From: Alteromonas australica
GTDB taxonomy: Bacteria > Pseudomonadota > Gammaproteobacteria > Enterobacterales > Alteromonadaceae
Reading direction: 5' to 3'
Length of the DNA stretch: 64,000 nt
Assembly (NCBI RefSeq): GCF_000730385.1
Contig: NZ_CP008849.1
Coordinates: 2,170,001-2,234,000, forward strand
Translations under genes and position numbers: made by a program
The notes under the pieces: model-generated
What the model was told of the DNA's origin: nothing
The model's input: the letters and a program-made list of their open reading frames with translations, nothing else
The model's database searches: none
Shown here: in pieces, positions 985 through 9,542 of the stretch
How the letters are laid out: every line of letters begins with the position of its first letter
Numbering within the stretch: the stretch's first letter is position 1

Positions 985-1037
985 ACGCCCCTTATTCCAG
1001 AGCAAAACCGTGAGGTTTGCCAAGGCCTAAGGGGCGT
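985..1037. terminator. Long hairpin between convergent genes
   Basis: A perfect 10-bp stem (ACGCCCCTTA at 985-994, TAAGGGGCGT at 1028-1037) encloses a second imperfect hairpin (GCAAAACC/GGTTTGC). It lies between the stop codons of the lipoprotein gene and the minus-strand cohesin-like gene. On the minus strand the stem is followed by a T-rich stretch (TTTCTTGTT), so it most likely ends the minus-strand operon. The large structured loop is unusual for a simple terminator. Confidence 0.5.
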
Positions 1038-1062: not shown

Positions 1063-1587
1063 TTATTTCACCCTGCGGCGCACGACGAATGCTGCCCCCA
1101 TTAAGATAAGAACAACCATAGCAGGCTCAGAGACTTCTGCCACCGTCAACGTGGCAGACGTAGACGATGTTGGGACTATTATATTACCACTCCCATCAGA
1201 CAATAGCAGACCGCTGGTGTCGAAACTAAACACGCCGCTCTGCAGTGCATTCAATGAAAGAGTGAAAATGTTAACGGTGCCGGTTAACGCGCCTGTGAAT
1301 GATAGCCCAAGGCTGCTTAAGCTCGTGCCATTATCTGAGTTTGACGTAAACCCAGCCACATCAAATTGACTGGAAGCGTTGTTGATATCGAAGGAAAAGG
1401 CATTTGCATCATAAGGCAACGAAAGTTGGTAACCTTGAAAATCATCAGTAAAGTCAAATATACCACTGAACGAAAGTACCACCTCATCGCCCACATTTAT
1501 TGTGGTTTCGTTCACAGAAACTGAAATTTGAGCTGAATGAGCATTTACGGTCCATAGTAGGGCCAGTATAGCGAATAGTGTTTTCAT
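1063..1587 (-). CDS. Cohesin-like domain protein with PEP-CTERM-type tail
   Basis: Small exported protein (174 aa). Residues 1-19 form a signal peptide ending in AHSA. The body (about 20-150) is beta-rich, with the layout of a cohesin domain: an opening beta strand, a VGDEVVLSFSG-like segment, then YQLSLPYDANAFSF, close to the cohesin pattern of a strand followed by a YDP-like loop. The C-terminus has SEPA, a hydrophobic helix and RRRVK, a variant of the PEP-CTERM signal cut by exosortases. It starts 25 bases after the stop of the dockerin-bearing nuclease, on the same strand, so the two are very likely co-transcribed. I infer that it anchors the nuclease. The cohesin call rests on fold-like pattern only; another Ig-like beta-sandwich remains possible. 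Confidence 0.6.
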   Translation of the reverse strand: MKTLFAILALLWTVNAHSAQISVSVNETTINVGDEVVLSFSGIFDFTDDFQGYQLSLPYDANAFSFDINNASSQFDVAGFTSNSDNGTSLSSLGLSFTGALTGTVNIFTLSLNALQSGVFSFDTSGLLLSDGSGNIIVPTSSTSATLTVAEVSEPAMVVLILMGAAFVVRRRVK

Positions 1588-1612
1588 CTTTTTTACTCCA
1601 TTTAAAAGCTAG

Positions 1613-4600
1613 TTAATTTGTTGCGCAGCCCATATTTGTGCACATGTTTCGCAGCATCATGACGTCAAAGATATTAATGAGCCCGTCATTATTTAAATCA
1701 AAACTGTCATCCATGTTTTGGTTGGTCGCGATGGCCATAGATAAACGTTGTAAATCAATCATGTCGATATCACCGTCGCTATCCCAATCGCCGGCCATTG
1801 TTTCGCTAGGCATAGTGAAGGTCGCGATCACGGGGTCGTGATCAGAGGCACGATATAGCAGAGAATTTGTGAATAGATCGCCATTGTCTTCAGTGTTGTA
1901 GTCTAAAACGGCGGGCTCATCAGCATTAATGTGCCACTCAGTGGCATCAAACAGCCATTCAGAGGCAAGGGCATTGGTCATTAAATAGTCCAACGTGCCA
2001 AGTTGACCATCAAAGGTGTAGCTATAGGCCAATTCACCAATCACAGTTGCAGCGGCATCTGAATAACCATAATCATTTAACACGGTAATAGGGTCTTCTT
2101 TCGCGTAGCTATTTAAGTCACCCAGCAAGATGACCGGGGTGTCTGGATATTCAGCTTCTAACCACGTGGCCACGGCGGTTGCCGCCCGTGTACGGGTTTT
2201 GTTACAGTTACCTTGACCTGTCTCATAGTCATCATCCCCGGTGCCGCAGGACGAACCTTTCGACTTAAAATGGTTAACATTGACCACAAACGTTTCGCCC
2301 GAGGCCAGGTGAATAAATTGCTGAGCTAGAGAAGGGCGGTTTTTTGTATCGACGAACAGCACACCCTCATCATCGCTTGGGCTATTACTTGAGTACAATA
2401 CTCTGGGCGCTTGATTCACACTTACTGTTGCAGGTTTATATAAAATTCCCACAACGATTTCGTCTGTACCAACGGCACCATTATTATTGGCCACAGAAGA
2501 CGCATCAATGTAGGCATAGGTACCTTCACCCATAGCGCTATTTAGTGCATCAACAAGTTGAGCAATTGCGCTGTCGCTACCAAACCCATCATTTTCTATT
2601 TCCATCAAACCTAATATATCGGCGTTGATGACAACGAGTGCGCTGACAATCTTGTCTAATTGACGGGCGTATTCGTCAGCCGTGGTGGCGCCACGAGCAG
2701 TAGGAAAATCGCCGCCATTACCGTCACCATTAAACAAATTAAGTACATTGAACCCTGCAATGGTCAAATCCTTCGCGGAAATGGCGGGAGCAGCTTCACG
2801 AGGATTTGTGTTTACTGTCGTTGGCGACTTAGTTTGATAAACACGATACCAATTAAAGGCATAGCCCAATACCCCTTCGATGTTACTCACTTGCATACCA
2901 CTTCGCGCGCTATTGTCAGCAGTGAAGCCATCGTCAGGTACATAATAGGCACTAACCGCATCGCCTGAACCTGTGTCGTCAATAAGCATTTGTGATAATG
3001 CGTTTGCGCTTGCTAACGCGAATGCTTCATCACTGCCTGGCAACGCTATCTGTGTAGGCTGATATAACCGAGAAGGTGCCACCCCAAGTTCGCCAAATTC
3101 ACCATAATTGTAATTTTGAGTCACGTACAAGGTTTGCGAATTGCTAATTAACATGCCTTCTAAGGCTTCAAACGCCAATGCATTTTCCACAGGGAGCCAC
3201 ATTGATGTCGCAAGCGTGGTGTTACTTCCACACGCTAAATTAGCTTCAATATCGGAGAGTTGAGTTTGCTCATAATACTCCTCAGCGGTACCGAGTAACC
3301 TCACGATTTGCCCAGTACTTACGCTGACATCAGGGGCATAGACGGCAATACCTTCAGAAGTGAGTGGATTGCTGTCTTGGTTAGACGGTTCTTCTTGAAC
3401 AAAGAAACTACCGCCGTCGAGTACCGCAGTTACAGCAGCTTCTATAACCACGCGTTGTCCATTTAGTGGTGTGACAAAACTGTCGCCTTGAACGTCACTT
3501 ATCAAGGTGGCGCTATCGCCACAAAGGCCGATAACGAGGTCGTCTTGGTTGTCATCGCTACCATCGTCAATGTCGCTACACTGTGCATCATCTTCCTGTG
3601 TGAATAGTTGCCCAGCATTTATCGACCCCATACTTGCGTCAGCTGGGCCGGCAAAGGTAAATGAACAACGTTGATTGCCTTCACCCACACGCTGCAATGA
3701 CTGTGTTGATAATGCAGTTCCCGTTTCACTCACCAAAATGTCAGTACTGGTTAAGCCAGACGCTGGGCCATTGGTGGCAGTCATAACCCCTTCGTAGCTT
3801 AGAAACTCAACAACATCGCCGTCAACAACAAGCGCTAAACCGTCTGGTGCACCATTTTGAATACCTGAAACAAGCATGGCTGCAGTACCATACCCATTTC
3901 CTTCATCTGGGAGAGTGCCTGTAAAGGTCACTGTTTTGTAGCTAGTGCCGCCATTGCCGTTATACAAAACCAGCGAGACAGTGCTTAAATCGGCGCCCGC
4001 TGGCCCCGCTATTTCAACAAACTCGTTCTCATCGCCACCGTCGTTGTCGTAATGAAACTCGTTAATAAACATGCCTTCTGCAATGATGCCCGGTGCGTCG
4101 TTTCCATCGTCGTCACTGCCACTATCACCGTCATCAGTATCACTAGAAGTGCCAAATACTTGGGTGAGGTTTACGGCACCCGCCGTTGCACTGGCAGGGG
4201 CATTCCAAGTGAAGTCACTGTATTGCCTTCCTTCACCACCAAGTTGTAAAGACAGGCCAACTTCCGTTGAGGTGGTCTCACTTACGCCAATATCAATACT
4301 GGTTAAGCCATTTGCAGCGCCGCTCGTGGCGGTTAATTCACCTTCATAGCTTAAAAATTGGATCACAGTGCCATCAGGGCCGACCAATGCAATGCCATCT
4401 GGACTGCCATTTTGAATACCCGACTTTTCAAAGGCAAGAACGCCAAAGCCGCTATCGTTGAGATTAGGAATAACACCAGAGAGCGACTCGGTCGCGTAAT
4501 CGCTTCCGCCATTACCGTTATAGAAAACTAACGTGTAACCAGATAAATCAGTATTGGCAGACCCAGCTATTTCAACCAACTCGTTAATGTCTCCACCGTC

Positions 4601-5200
4601 GTTATCGTAATGAATTTCATTTATAAACGGAGTAACGGTAAAGTTGAATGTTTGCCCTTGATTAGCCGCGCCCGGTGTTTGGTTATTCGCGTGCCATGTA
4701 AAATCGTCGTATTCGCTACCTTCTCCAGTCAGTTGCAAAGACATACCTATTTCCGTACTTGCGGTTTCTTCAATACCAATGTCTACGCTCGTTATACCGT
4801 CTGCTGCACCACCTACAGCGGTAAAACTGCCTTCGTAGCTCAAAAACTGGATCAGTTGACCGTTGCTATCAACTAGCGCTAATCCGTCGGGTGCTCCATT
4901 TTGAATACCGTTGGTAGGCAGGTTGATAACGTAACTTCCCATTCCATCACCAAGGGATGCTACGGTGCCCGACAGGGTCTCTGTCAGGTAAGCGGCACCA
5001 TTATTTCCGTTGTAAAGTACCACTGAATAGTCGGTTAAATCAGTGCCTTCTGGTGCAACTATTTCGATAAATTCGTCAACATCACCACCGTCGTTGTCGT
5101 AGTGAAACTCATTGATAAACACCGAAGTCGCGAAAGCTGAACTTGAGATAAGGGCACTGGCAATGGCGCCGGCTACCTTTGCTGAAGCGAGAGGTTTCAT
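1613..5200 (-). CDS. ExeM/NucH-type extracellular nuclease with dockerin
   Basis: Secreted 1195-residue nuclease. Order: signal peptide (1-25); three lamin-tail domains (about 28-184, 192-350, 378-534), each opening with a near-identical FINEFHYDNDGGD segment; an OB-fold region like YhcR (about 560-690); an exonuclease/endonuclease/phosphatase domain in the C-terminal third (FNVLNLFN, LMEIEND, NHFKSK, LLGDLNS, SDHDPV), which carries the metal-binding and catalytic Glu, Asn, Asp and His; and a C-terminal type I dockerin with two calcium loops (DSDGDIDMIDL and DLNNDGLINIFDV). Asp/Ser-rich linkers separate the domains. Related enzymes degrade extracellular DNA for phosphate and biofilm turnover. 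The dockerin is not usual for this family and the next gene encodes a cohesin-like protein. The ATG at 5200 opens a clear signal peptide. Confidence 0.88.
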   Translation of the reverse strand: MKPLASAKVAGAIASALISSSAFATSVFINEFHYDNDGGDVDEFIEIVAPEGTDLTDYSVVLYNGNNGAAYLTETLSGTVASLGDGMGSYVINLPTNGIQNGAPDGLALVDSNGQLIQFLSYEGSFTAVGGAADGITSVDIGIEETASTEIGMSLQLTGEGSEYDDFTWHANNQTPGAANQGQTFNFTVTPFINEIHYDNDGGDINELVEIAGSANTDLSGYTLVFYNGNGGSDYATESLSGVIPNLNDSGFGVLAFEKSGIQNGSPDGIALVGPDGTVIQFLSYEGELTATSGAANGLTSIDIGVSETTSTEVGLSLQLGGEGRQYSDFTWNAPASATAGAVNLTQVFGTSSDTDDGDSGSDDDGNDAPGIIAEGMFINEFHYDNDGGDENEFVEIAGPAGADLSTVSLVLYNGNGGTSYKTVTFTGTLPDEGNGYGTAAMLVSGIQNGAPDGLALVVDGDVVEFLSYEGVMTATNGPASGLTSTDILVSETGTALSTQSLQRVGEGNQRCSFTFAGPADASMGSINAGQLFTQEDDAQCSDIDDGSDDNQDDLVIGLCGDSATLISDVQGDSFVTPLNGQRVVIEAAVTAVLDGGSFFVQEEPSNQDSNPLTSEGIAVYAPDVSVSTGQIVRLLGTAEEYYEQTQLSDIEANLACGSNTTLATSMWLPVENALAFEALEGMLISNSQTLYVTQNYNYGEFGELGVAPSRLYQPTQIALPGSDEAFALASANALSQMLIDDTGSGDAVSAYYVPDDGFTADNSARSGMQVSNIEGVLGYAFNWYRVYQTKSPTTVNTNPREAAPAISAKDLTIAGFNVLNLFNGDGNGGDFPTARGATTADEYARQLDKIVSALVVINADILGLMEIENDGFGSDSAIAQLVDALNSAMGEGTYAYIDASSVANNNGAVGTDEIVVGILYKPATVSVNQAPRVLYSSNSPSDDEGVLFVDTKNRPSLAQQFIHLASGETFVVNVNHFKSKGSSCGTGDDDYETGQGNCNKTRTRAATAVATWLEAEYPDTPVILLGDLNSYAKEDPITVLNDYGYSDAAATVIGELAYSYTFDGQLGTLDYLMTNALASEWLFDATEWHINADEPAVLDYNTEDNGDLFTNSLLYRASDHDPVIATFTMPSETMAGDWDSDGDIDMIDLQRLSMAIATNQNMDDSFDLNNDGLINIFDVMMLRNMCTNMGCATN
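3599..5119 (-). repeat. Three tandem lamin-tail domain units
   Basis: Three coding repeats of about 155 codons occupy 4649-5119, 4151-4627 and 3599-4069. Each begins FINE(F/I)HYDNDGGD and contains VLYNGNGG-like, GIQNGAPDG-like and FLSYEG segments. The repeats are similar at DNA level in those segments, so internal recombination could change copy number. Confidence 0.8.
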
Positions 5201-9299: not shown

Positions 9300-9542
9300 G
9301 TGGACGCCCAACTTTCAGACGAAAAAATTGAAGAGATAAAAAAAGATTTTAGCTTTTTTGATCGCGATGGTAACGGCCAAATAGACTTAACTGAGTTTAT
9401 TGAATTACTGACGGTCATTTCACCAAAAACAAAAGCGAGCCATGTAGAAGAAGGCTTCAAACTTATTGATGAAAACAACGATGGTTTTATCGATTTTGAA
9501 GAGTTCTTAGAGTGGTGGCAAGAATGTTGGTGGGAATACTAA
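9300..9542 (+). CDS. EF-hand calcium-binding protein
   Basis: An 80-residue acidic protein with two canonical EF-hands: DRDGNGQIDLTEF (about 21-33) and DENNDGFIDFEEF (about 57-69), each with the Asp/Asn positions and the final Glu of the 12-residue loop. The layout is calmodulin-like with half the length. There is no signal peptide, so it is probably cytoplasmic. The start is GTG 9300 with AAAGGGA just upstream. The C-terminus is Trp-rich (WWQECWWEY). A terminator follows, so it is probably a separate unit or the end of the trhO transcript. The target protein is unknown. Confidence 0.8.
   Translation: MDAQLSDEKIEEIKKDFSFFDRDGNGQIDLTEFIELLTVISPKTKASHVEEGFKLIDENNDGFIDFEEFLEWWQECWWEY

Follow-up and report, generated by a model that had tools for sequence, protein, structure and literature searches.

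The window analysed here, a 64,000-nucleotide stretch of the Alteromonas australica contig NZ_CP008849.1, carries near its start two neighbouring genes on the reverse strand, encoding a large extracellular nuclease and a small protein with a membrane tail (Table 1). The two open reading frames (ORFs) and the 25 bases between them lie just as the first-pass annotation had described. This gap contains a GGAG ribosome-binding-like site (1596-1599) and, as a pattern scan of it returned no promoter-like or terminator-like site, the two genes are likely to form one operon. The hairpin located 3' of the pair comes from a scan that found 4 terminator-like sites, compared with 4.5 in shuffled sequences.

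Table 1. Features of the nuclease-cohesin gene pair (positions are those of the window)
Feature	Position	Strand	Evidence
ExeM/NucH-family extracellular nuclease gene, 1195 aa	1613..5200	-	NF033681 and Pfam domains
ExeM/NucH nuclease core, residues 587-1129	1814..3442	-	NF033681, 570 bits (cut-off 300)
Type I dockerin, residues 1136-1185	1646..1795	-	PF00404, 26.7 bits (cut-off 22.9)
C-x4-C motif (Cys1187, Cys1192), directly after the dockerin	1625..1642	-	Alignments A2 and A4
Intergenic gap, 25 nt, stop to ATG	1588..1612	-	Sequence
174-aa protein: signal-peptide-like start (by eye), one cohesin domain, PEP-CTERM-type tail	1063..1587	-	Profile and fold
Cohesin domain as modelled, residues 18-152	1132..1536	-	AlphaFold2, pLDDT 82.3, pTM 0.75
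PEP-CTERM-type tail, residues 152-172 (VSEP, hydrophobic stretch, RRR)	1072..1134	-	PF07589, 12.5 bits, sub-threshold alone
Terminator-like hairpin, 3' of the gene pair	986..1004	-	Pattern scan only

The larger protein is, as judged from its family and domain matches, an ExeM/NucH-family nuclease with a genuine type I dockerin. Its domain order (Pfam) runs from a signal-peptide-like N-terminus through three LTD domains and an Exo_endo_phos core to a C-terminal Dockerin_1 domain. The two-loop dockerin that had been proposed for this end is borne out by a PF00404 score above the cut-off and by two complete 12-residue calcium-type loops, DWDSDGDIDMID and DLNNDGLINIFD. It is the sole PF00404 match in the 4.31-Mb genome, in which our own dockerin profile scores the nuclease at 89 bits and the next best protein at 18.5; compared with the PDB, this profile retrieves cellulosomal dockerins (best 2y3n_B, E 8.5e-8) mixed with calmodulin-type EF-hand proteins. 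The C-x4-C motif is invariant in both dockerin alignments, A2 (14 rows) and A4 (22 rows), and occurs in 95 of the 97 distinct dockerin ORFs of the pairs, a count biased upward because the search profiles were made from the families that they search, mainly from sequences with C-x4-C. A full-length match to the ExeM-GG model (NF033680) is not reached by the nuclease (296 of 1300 bits), whose C-terminus is the dockerin. Elsewhere in the window, an 80-aa EF-hand-like ORF (9300-9542, forward strand), recognized by eye from DRDGNGQIDLTEF and DENNDGFIDFEEF, has no visible link to the pair.

Taken as a single sequence, the 174-aa protein gives no cohesin match in Pfam, NCBIfam or PDB searches, and a search for related loci with it returned no matches. 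Its C-terminus possesses the elements of the PEP-CTERM-type tail recorded in the first-pass annotation, namely VSEP, a hydrophobic stretch and RRRVK, which score below the cut-offs when this sequence is considered alone (12.5 against 20.7 bits for the Pfam PEP-CTERM model and 14.7 against 16 bits for TIGR02595). Profile A1, an alignment of 28 family members, was compared with all PDB sequences and its top 20 rows are all cohesin or cellulosomal entries (best 3l8q, E 7.5e-15). Taken singly at E<=0.01, 11 of the 28 members match PF00963 (Cohesin) and 13 match PF07589 (PEP-CTERM), the window's own protein matching neither, and the tail proline is invariant across all 28. Residues 18-152, a stretch without the membrane tail and with almost none of the signal peptide, were modelled by AlphaFold2 together with 12 relatives, raising the pLDDT from the 31 obtained with the single small-protein sequence to 82.3. 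A Foldseek search of the PDB with this model lists cohesins or scaffoldins in all of its top 48 rows (best E 9.7e-8), and VIA-align superposes the model on 2vo8 with a Z of 15.2 and an rmsd of 2.3 over 129 residues. Unrelated Ig-like and adhesin domains reach a Z of up to 11.7, and a Z score by itself would not settle the fold. The predicted jelly-roll cohesin fold is well supported because profile and fold agree, so that the cohesin-like pattern first seen by a reader of the letters alone, for which a structure model had been advised as a check, with any other fold as the refuting outcome, has passed this check and is now recognizable as a cohesin domain. Genome-wide, the cohesin profile scores the small protein at 151.7 bits and the next protein at 22.1; three weaker matches, on inspection, are not cohesins.

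The recurrence of the gene pair in other genomes, which had likewise been put forward as a check, is strongly positive. With the small protein as query, matches were obtained in 31 of 295 related genomes, its own included, and an ORF with dockerin-type loops, identified by eye, lies upstream on the same strand in all 30 loci L003-L032 (L003 is the window). Across the 295 genomes PF00404 matches 112 and profile A1 matches 169, the weak end of the A1 matches also taking in other PEP-CTERM proteins. Among the 150 A1 matches listed, 89 lie 3' of a same-strand PF00404 dockerin at a median distance of 63 nt (largest 953), compared with a chance expectation of about 0.035 for such adjacency within 1500 nt, assuming 4.5-Mb genomes. 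Sixty of the other 61 were scanned with our own dockerin profiles, which were made from the families searched, and 19 plus 26 of these have an adjacent same-strand dockerin ORF beyond the PF00404 matches listed. Seven more loci show the reverse order, in which the dockerin ORF follows the cohesin gene (PF00404 match 3.3-3.5 kb away), and this cohesin-first order is also found in 4 of the 26 newly paired loci. With PF00404 and the additional profiles, and in both gene orders, a dockerin ORF is thus adjacent to 141 of the 150 A1 matches listed. The remainder comprise the G152 locus (L109/L015), which has a dockerin-like tail upstream by eye; L224, close to a contig end; L241 and L255, each encoding a cohesin-like protein with no dockerin found at the locus; L256-L259, whose matches are other PEP-CTERM proteins; and one match without a fetched locus. 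For 68 adjacent pairs, 64 of them distinct, the start of the following open frame falls between 74 nt ahead of the dockerin ORF's end and 156 nt beyond it, within a search range of -120 to 400; L139, L140, L143 and L165 duplicate L064, L070, L081 and L104, and distinct counts leave out such repeats.

The enzyme that bears the dockerin is variable. Of 81 distinct dockerin ORFs (L058-L217), 44 nucleases and 21 other proteins have a cohesin at the locus and 16 do not. Pfam analysis covered 8 of the 22 non-nuclease partners and identified two porphyranases, two M43 metallopeptidases, an M9 collagenase, an S8 subtilase, a BNR_4 and a CBM6 protein; PF00404 is listed for four of these eight and is above the cut-off for three, the remaining dockerins resting on our own profile. 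As the enzyme changes while the pair stays, it is the dockerin, and not the nuclease, to which the cohesin is tied. The correlation between cohesin distances and dockerin distances over 36 dereplicated nuclease pairs is 0.58, and its partial value given the nuclease core, 0.49, was reached by 0 of 999 permutations; a Mantel comparison of 48 pairs, repeats included, gives 0.71 and a partial value of 0.48. Physical linkage may contribute to this correlation and, as a measure of co-evolution, it is confounded by linkage.

The taxonomic range of the pair extends beyond the close relatives of the host. It is found in 12 of 80 loci from named genomes, belonging to Bowmanella, Alteromonas, three Paraglaciecola, Thalassomonas, two uncultured Colwellia, two Gammaproteobacteria metagenome-assembled genomes and two Acidobacteriota. 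In the last two loci (L150, from Candidatus Sulfopaludibacter, and L170) the dockerin is assigned by motif only, our own dockerin profile having no match in either. At E<=1e-9, A1 matches 16 of 369 genomes from the class. The 14 loci that lie outside the order comprise nine with a dockerin-like neighbour on the same strand (six well scored, three weak) and five with none.

Dockerins also occur without a cohesin. No listed cohesin-family member lies near 54 of the 150 dockerins listed, and in 11 of the 20 such loci that were examined a dockerin ORF with C-x4-C has no cohesin found next to it. Twenty-eight dockerin-bearing genomes have no cohesin among the matches listed. A divergent cohesin hidden elsewhere was sought in these genomes and in two controls with a wider profile, which added only two cohesin-like proteins, that of G115 (78 bits) and that of G110 (51 bits), both encoded next to a dockerin-type ORF; its matches at L291, L292, L294 and L298 are unrelated PEP-CTERM proteins and the others are mostly tail-only. 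Want of an exosortase is ruled out as the reason, as 26 of the 28 genomes possess one. The several relatives with a dockerin enzyme and no cohesin found count against obligate pairing: a dockerin can exist without its partner, whether through gene loss, another partner or another role. Some orphan dockerin proteins (L129, L130, L134, L135 and L136) share a short additional C-terminal extension past the C-x4-C motif, with endings that include LRSLFR, LRSLFN and FAGLFSR. The L255 protein mentioned above stands alone: its genome (G067) has four listed unpaired dockerins, for which this cohesin-like PEP-CTERM protein could possibly be a shared socket.

The A. australica genome encodes a single exosortase, XrtA (TIGR03109, 297 bits, cut-off 208), whose neighbours are the polysaccharide deacetylase that goes with it and an XrtA-system glycosyltransferase. 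Among the 295 genomes, 185 match the exosortase family PF09721, 182 of them above the cut-off. An exosortase match is seen in all 94 genomes that have a listed cohesin-family member, including G156, where it is weak (E 5.3e-5), and in 91 of 201 others, which may include members beyond the matches listed (Fisher 7e-25); within the taxonomic family the corresponding figures are 93 of 93 and 58 of 84 (3e-10). Four non-cohesin PEP-CTERM proteins and one match without a fetched locus were left out of this comparison. The p-values are only indicative because related species are not independent, and the co-occurrence is confounded by phylogeny.

These observations can be assembled into a mechanism in which the nuclease and small-protein genes would be co-transcribed as a docking module. 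The nuclease would be secreted with its C-terminal calcium-binding dockerin as a plug, and the small protein would provide a single cohesin socket whose PEP-CTERM tail would be a substrate of XrtA. The exosortase would place the cohesin into the cell envelope or exopolysaccharide, where it would hold the dockerin, a binding that is suggested by the pairing of the genes, such that the nuclease would stay near the cell instead of diffusing away. The anchor would thereby be given in trans, in place of the in-cis GlyGly-CTERM tail of classical ExeM. That the pair is a dedicated single-cohesin, exosortase-sorted docking module that retains exoenzymes near the cell is, in our assessment, probable, and the cohesin fold and the recurring gene pair lend overall support to the minimal display module that the first-pass annotation had envisaged. 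Its placement of this module outside cellulosomes also stands: with one cohesin, one dockerin and no multi-cohesin scaffoldin found in the whole genome, a cellulosome is ruled out. PEP-CTERM sorting may end in exopolysaccharide or in the envelope and need not lead to a classical surface anchor, so display on the surface itself stays an inference.

The question of where the complex ends up gives rise to the most serious alternative, in which the cohesin is a matrix or release partner: its tail would be cut by the exosortase and the complex exported to loose exopolysaccharide or the medium, organizing the enzyme within the biofilm matrix instead of holding it on the cell. The polysaccharide deacetylase and XrtA-system glycosyltransferase beside XrtA are in keeping with this, as is the description of the PEP-CTERM system as exopolysaccharide-associated in excerpts of PMC1569441, and we regard it as a substantial possibility, if one short of even. 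Nothing decisive opposes it; the available text on the homologous classical ExeM reports membrane retention, which would make retention a habit of the family (PMC6085458). In that text, classical ExeM carries a GlyGly-CTERM and remains in the inner-membrane fraction even with this anchor deleted, so a nuclease of the ExeM family may not need an anchor; VesB, another GlyGly-CTERM protein, is described in part of a second report as retained at the cell surface (PMC6219818). In the 80 loci from named genomes, 75 ExeM-like ORFs have C-termini that are, by eye, very different, so that end looks exchangeable.

The remaining alternatives concern what the cohesin binds and why. Tight spacing and the usual single dedicated partner per enzyme would also be expected if the cohesin, instead of anchoring the dockerin enzyme, served it as export chaperone or protector or acted as its inhibitor. 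The invariant tail proline of the 28 A1 members and the exosortase in 94 of 94 genomes point instead to sorting, and one partner type for unrelated catalytic domains renders an active-site inhibitor unlikely, making this role as a whole doubtful. The orphan dockerin enzymes of genomes that yielded no cohesin could indicate that the dockerin is only a calcium-stabilized terminal domain, with the cohesin-like protein binding something else and the adjacency inherited; against this, adjacency persists with different enzymes, in both gene orders and in distant families, and the partner distances correlate beyond the nuclease core, and we hold it to be improbable. A plain PEP-CTERM surface protein that owes its matches to signal peptide and tail only is a most improbable identity for the small protein: some profile matches are indeed tail-only, such as those at L256-L259, but the domain modelled in the absence of the membrane tail is a cohesin, which contradicts this reading, and the Pfam Cohesin matches of 11 of the 28 A1 members also speak against it.

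The closest solved structures to the modelled domain are from Clostridium perfringens (2jh2, 2w1n of GH84C and 2vo8 of GH33; Z 13.6-15.2), entries titled as glycoside hydrolases that share with the small protein a single, non-cellulosomal cohesin fold. In the C. perfringens glycosidases, the cohesin is a module within the enzyme, whereas in the present pair it forms a small PEP-CTERM-type protein of its own and the dockerin is on the enzyme. The latter arrangement, with the dockerin on the enzyme and the cohesin on the anchor, is that of the cellulosome (ScaB type II cohesins 3l8q and 1qzn), which differs in its multi-cohesin scaffoldins, none of which was found in this genome with its one cohesin and one dockerin, and in its S-layer or sortase anchors in place of an exosortase-type tail. 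As in the PEP-CTERM/exosortase (XrtA) system, the tail is tripartite and the genome has XrtA; however, A1 members match 15 NCBIfam families, none of them named as a cohesin, and XDP1 (exosortase-dependent surface protein) is matched at E<=0.01 by 17 of the 28 members (best 3.5e-6, the model's cut-off not being shown). Shewanella oneidensis ExeM belongs to the same nuclease family and, in the excerpts available, is kept near the cell; it carries a C-terminal GlyGly-CTERM of its own (GlyGly-CTERM/rhombosortase), whereas the C-terminus of the window's nuclease is a dockerin, which would depend on a second protein (PMC6085458, PMC6219818). Cohesins and dockerins beyond cellulosomes are described, in excerpts from four further sources, in ANME archaea, in their sulfate-reducing partners, where adjacent cohesin and dockerin domains are mentioned, and in Saccharophagus degradans, with two dockerin-like and six cohesin-like ORFs (PMC5244752, PMC9012536, PMC10553843, PMC2386152); those excerpts contain no PEP-CTERM single-cohesin partner or enzyme-cohesin operon of the present kind. 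In the open PubMed Central literature no paper was found that combines cohesin, dockerin and PEP-CTERM, and only an ANME review combines dockerin with exosortase. The parts are known, and their combination as a dedicated exosortase-linked enzyme-cohesin operon appears to be new in the literature that could be searched.

A 2017 review called the role of cohesins and dockerins outside the cellulosome unknown, in the portion seen (PMC5244752), and the model proposed here gives them a concrete, testable function. Its generalization, which we favour with somewhat less assurance than the module itself, is a widespread Gram-negative class of exoenzyme display in which each dockerin enzyme (DNase, protease, collagenase or porphyranase) lies beside its own exosortase-sorted single-cohesin anchor, the dockerin typically bearing C-x4-C in the window's family. 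Such a class would be a distributed, one-socket counterpart of the cellulosome that has spread across catalytic families and reached the Acidobacteriota. The occurrence of the pair beside many secreted enzymes in related bacteria suggests a common way to keep enzymes near the cell; it would explain how marine bacteria retain polymer-degrading enzymes close by and offers a possible cargo logic for exosortase/PEP-CTERM proteins. The 97 distinct natural cohesin-dockerin gene pairs are also a resource for tests of orthogonal binding.

Several loci depart from the simple layout. The dockerin is internal, 212-220 residues from the end, in three proteins encoded beside a cohesin gene (L075, an M43 peptidase, L061 and L073), and lies far from the C-terminus in the long proteins of L228, L242 and L245, also beside a cohesin gene. 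The cohesin homologue of L021 (G071) lacks the membrane tail and ends right after VPEP, at a locus with a transposase-like ORF. In Paraglaciecola polaris (L143, 2689-11821), two dockerin enzymes, an ExeM nuclease on the upstream side and an S8 subtilase on the downstream side, flank a single cohesin gene, a layout that suggests one socket could serve two enzymes.
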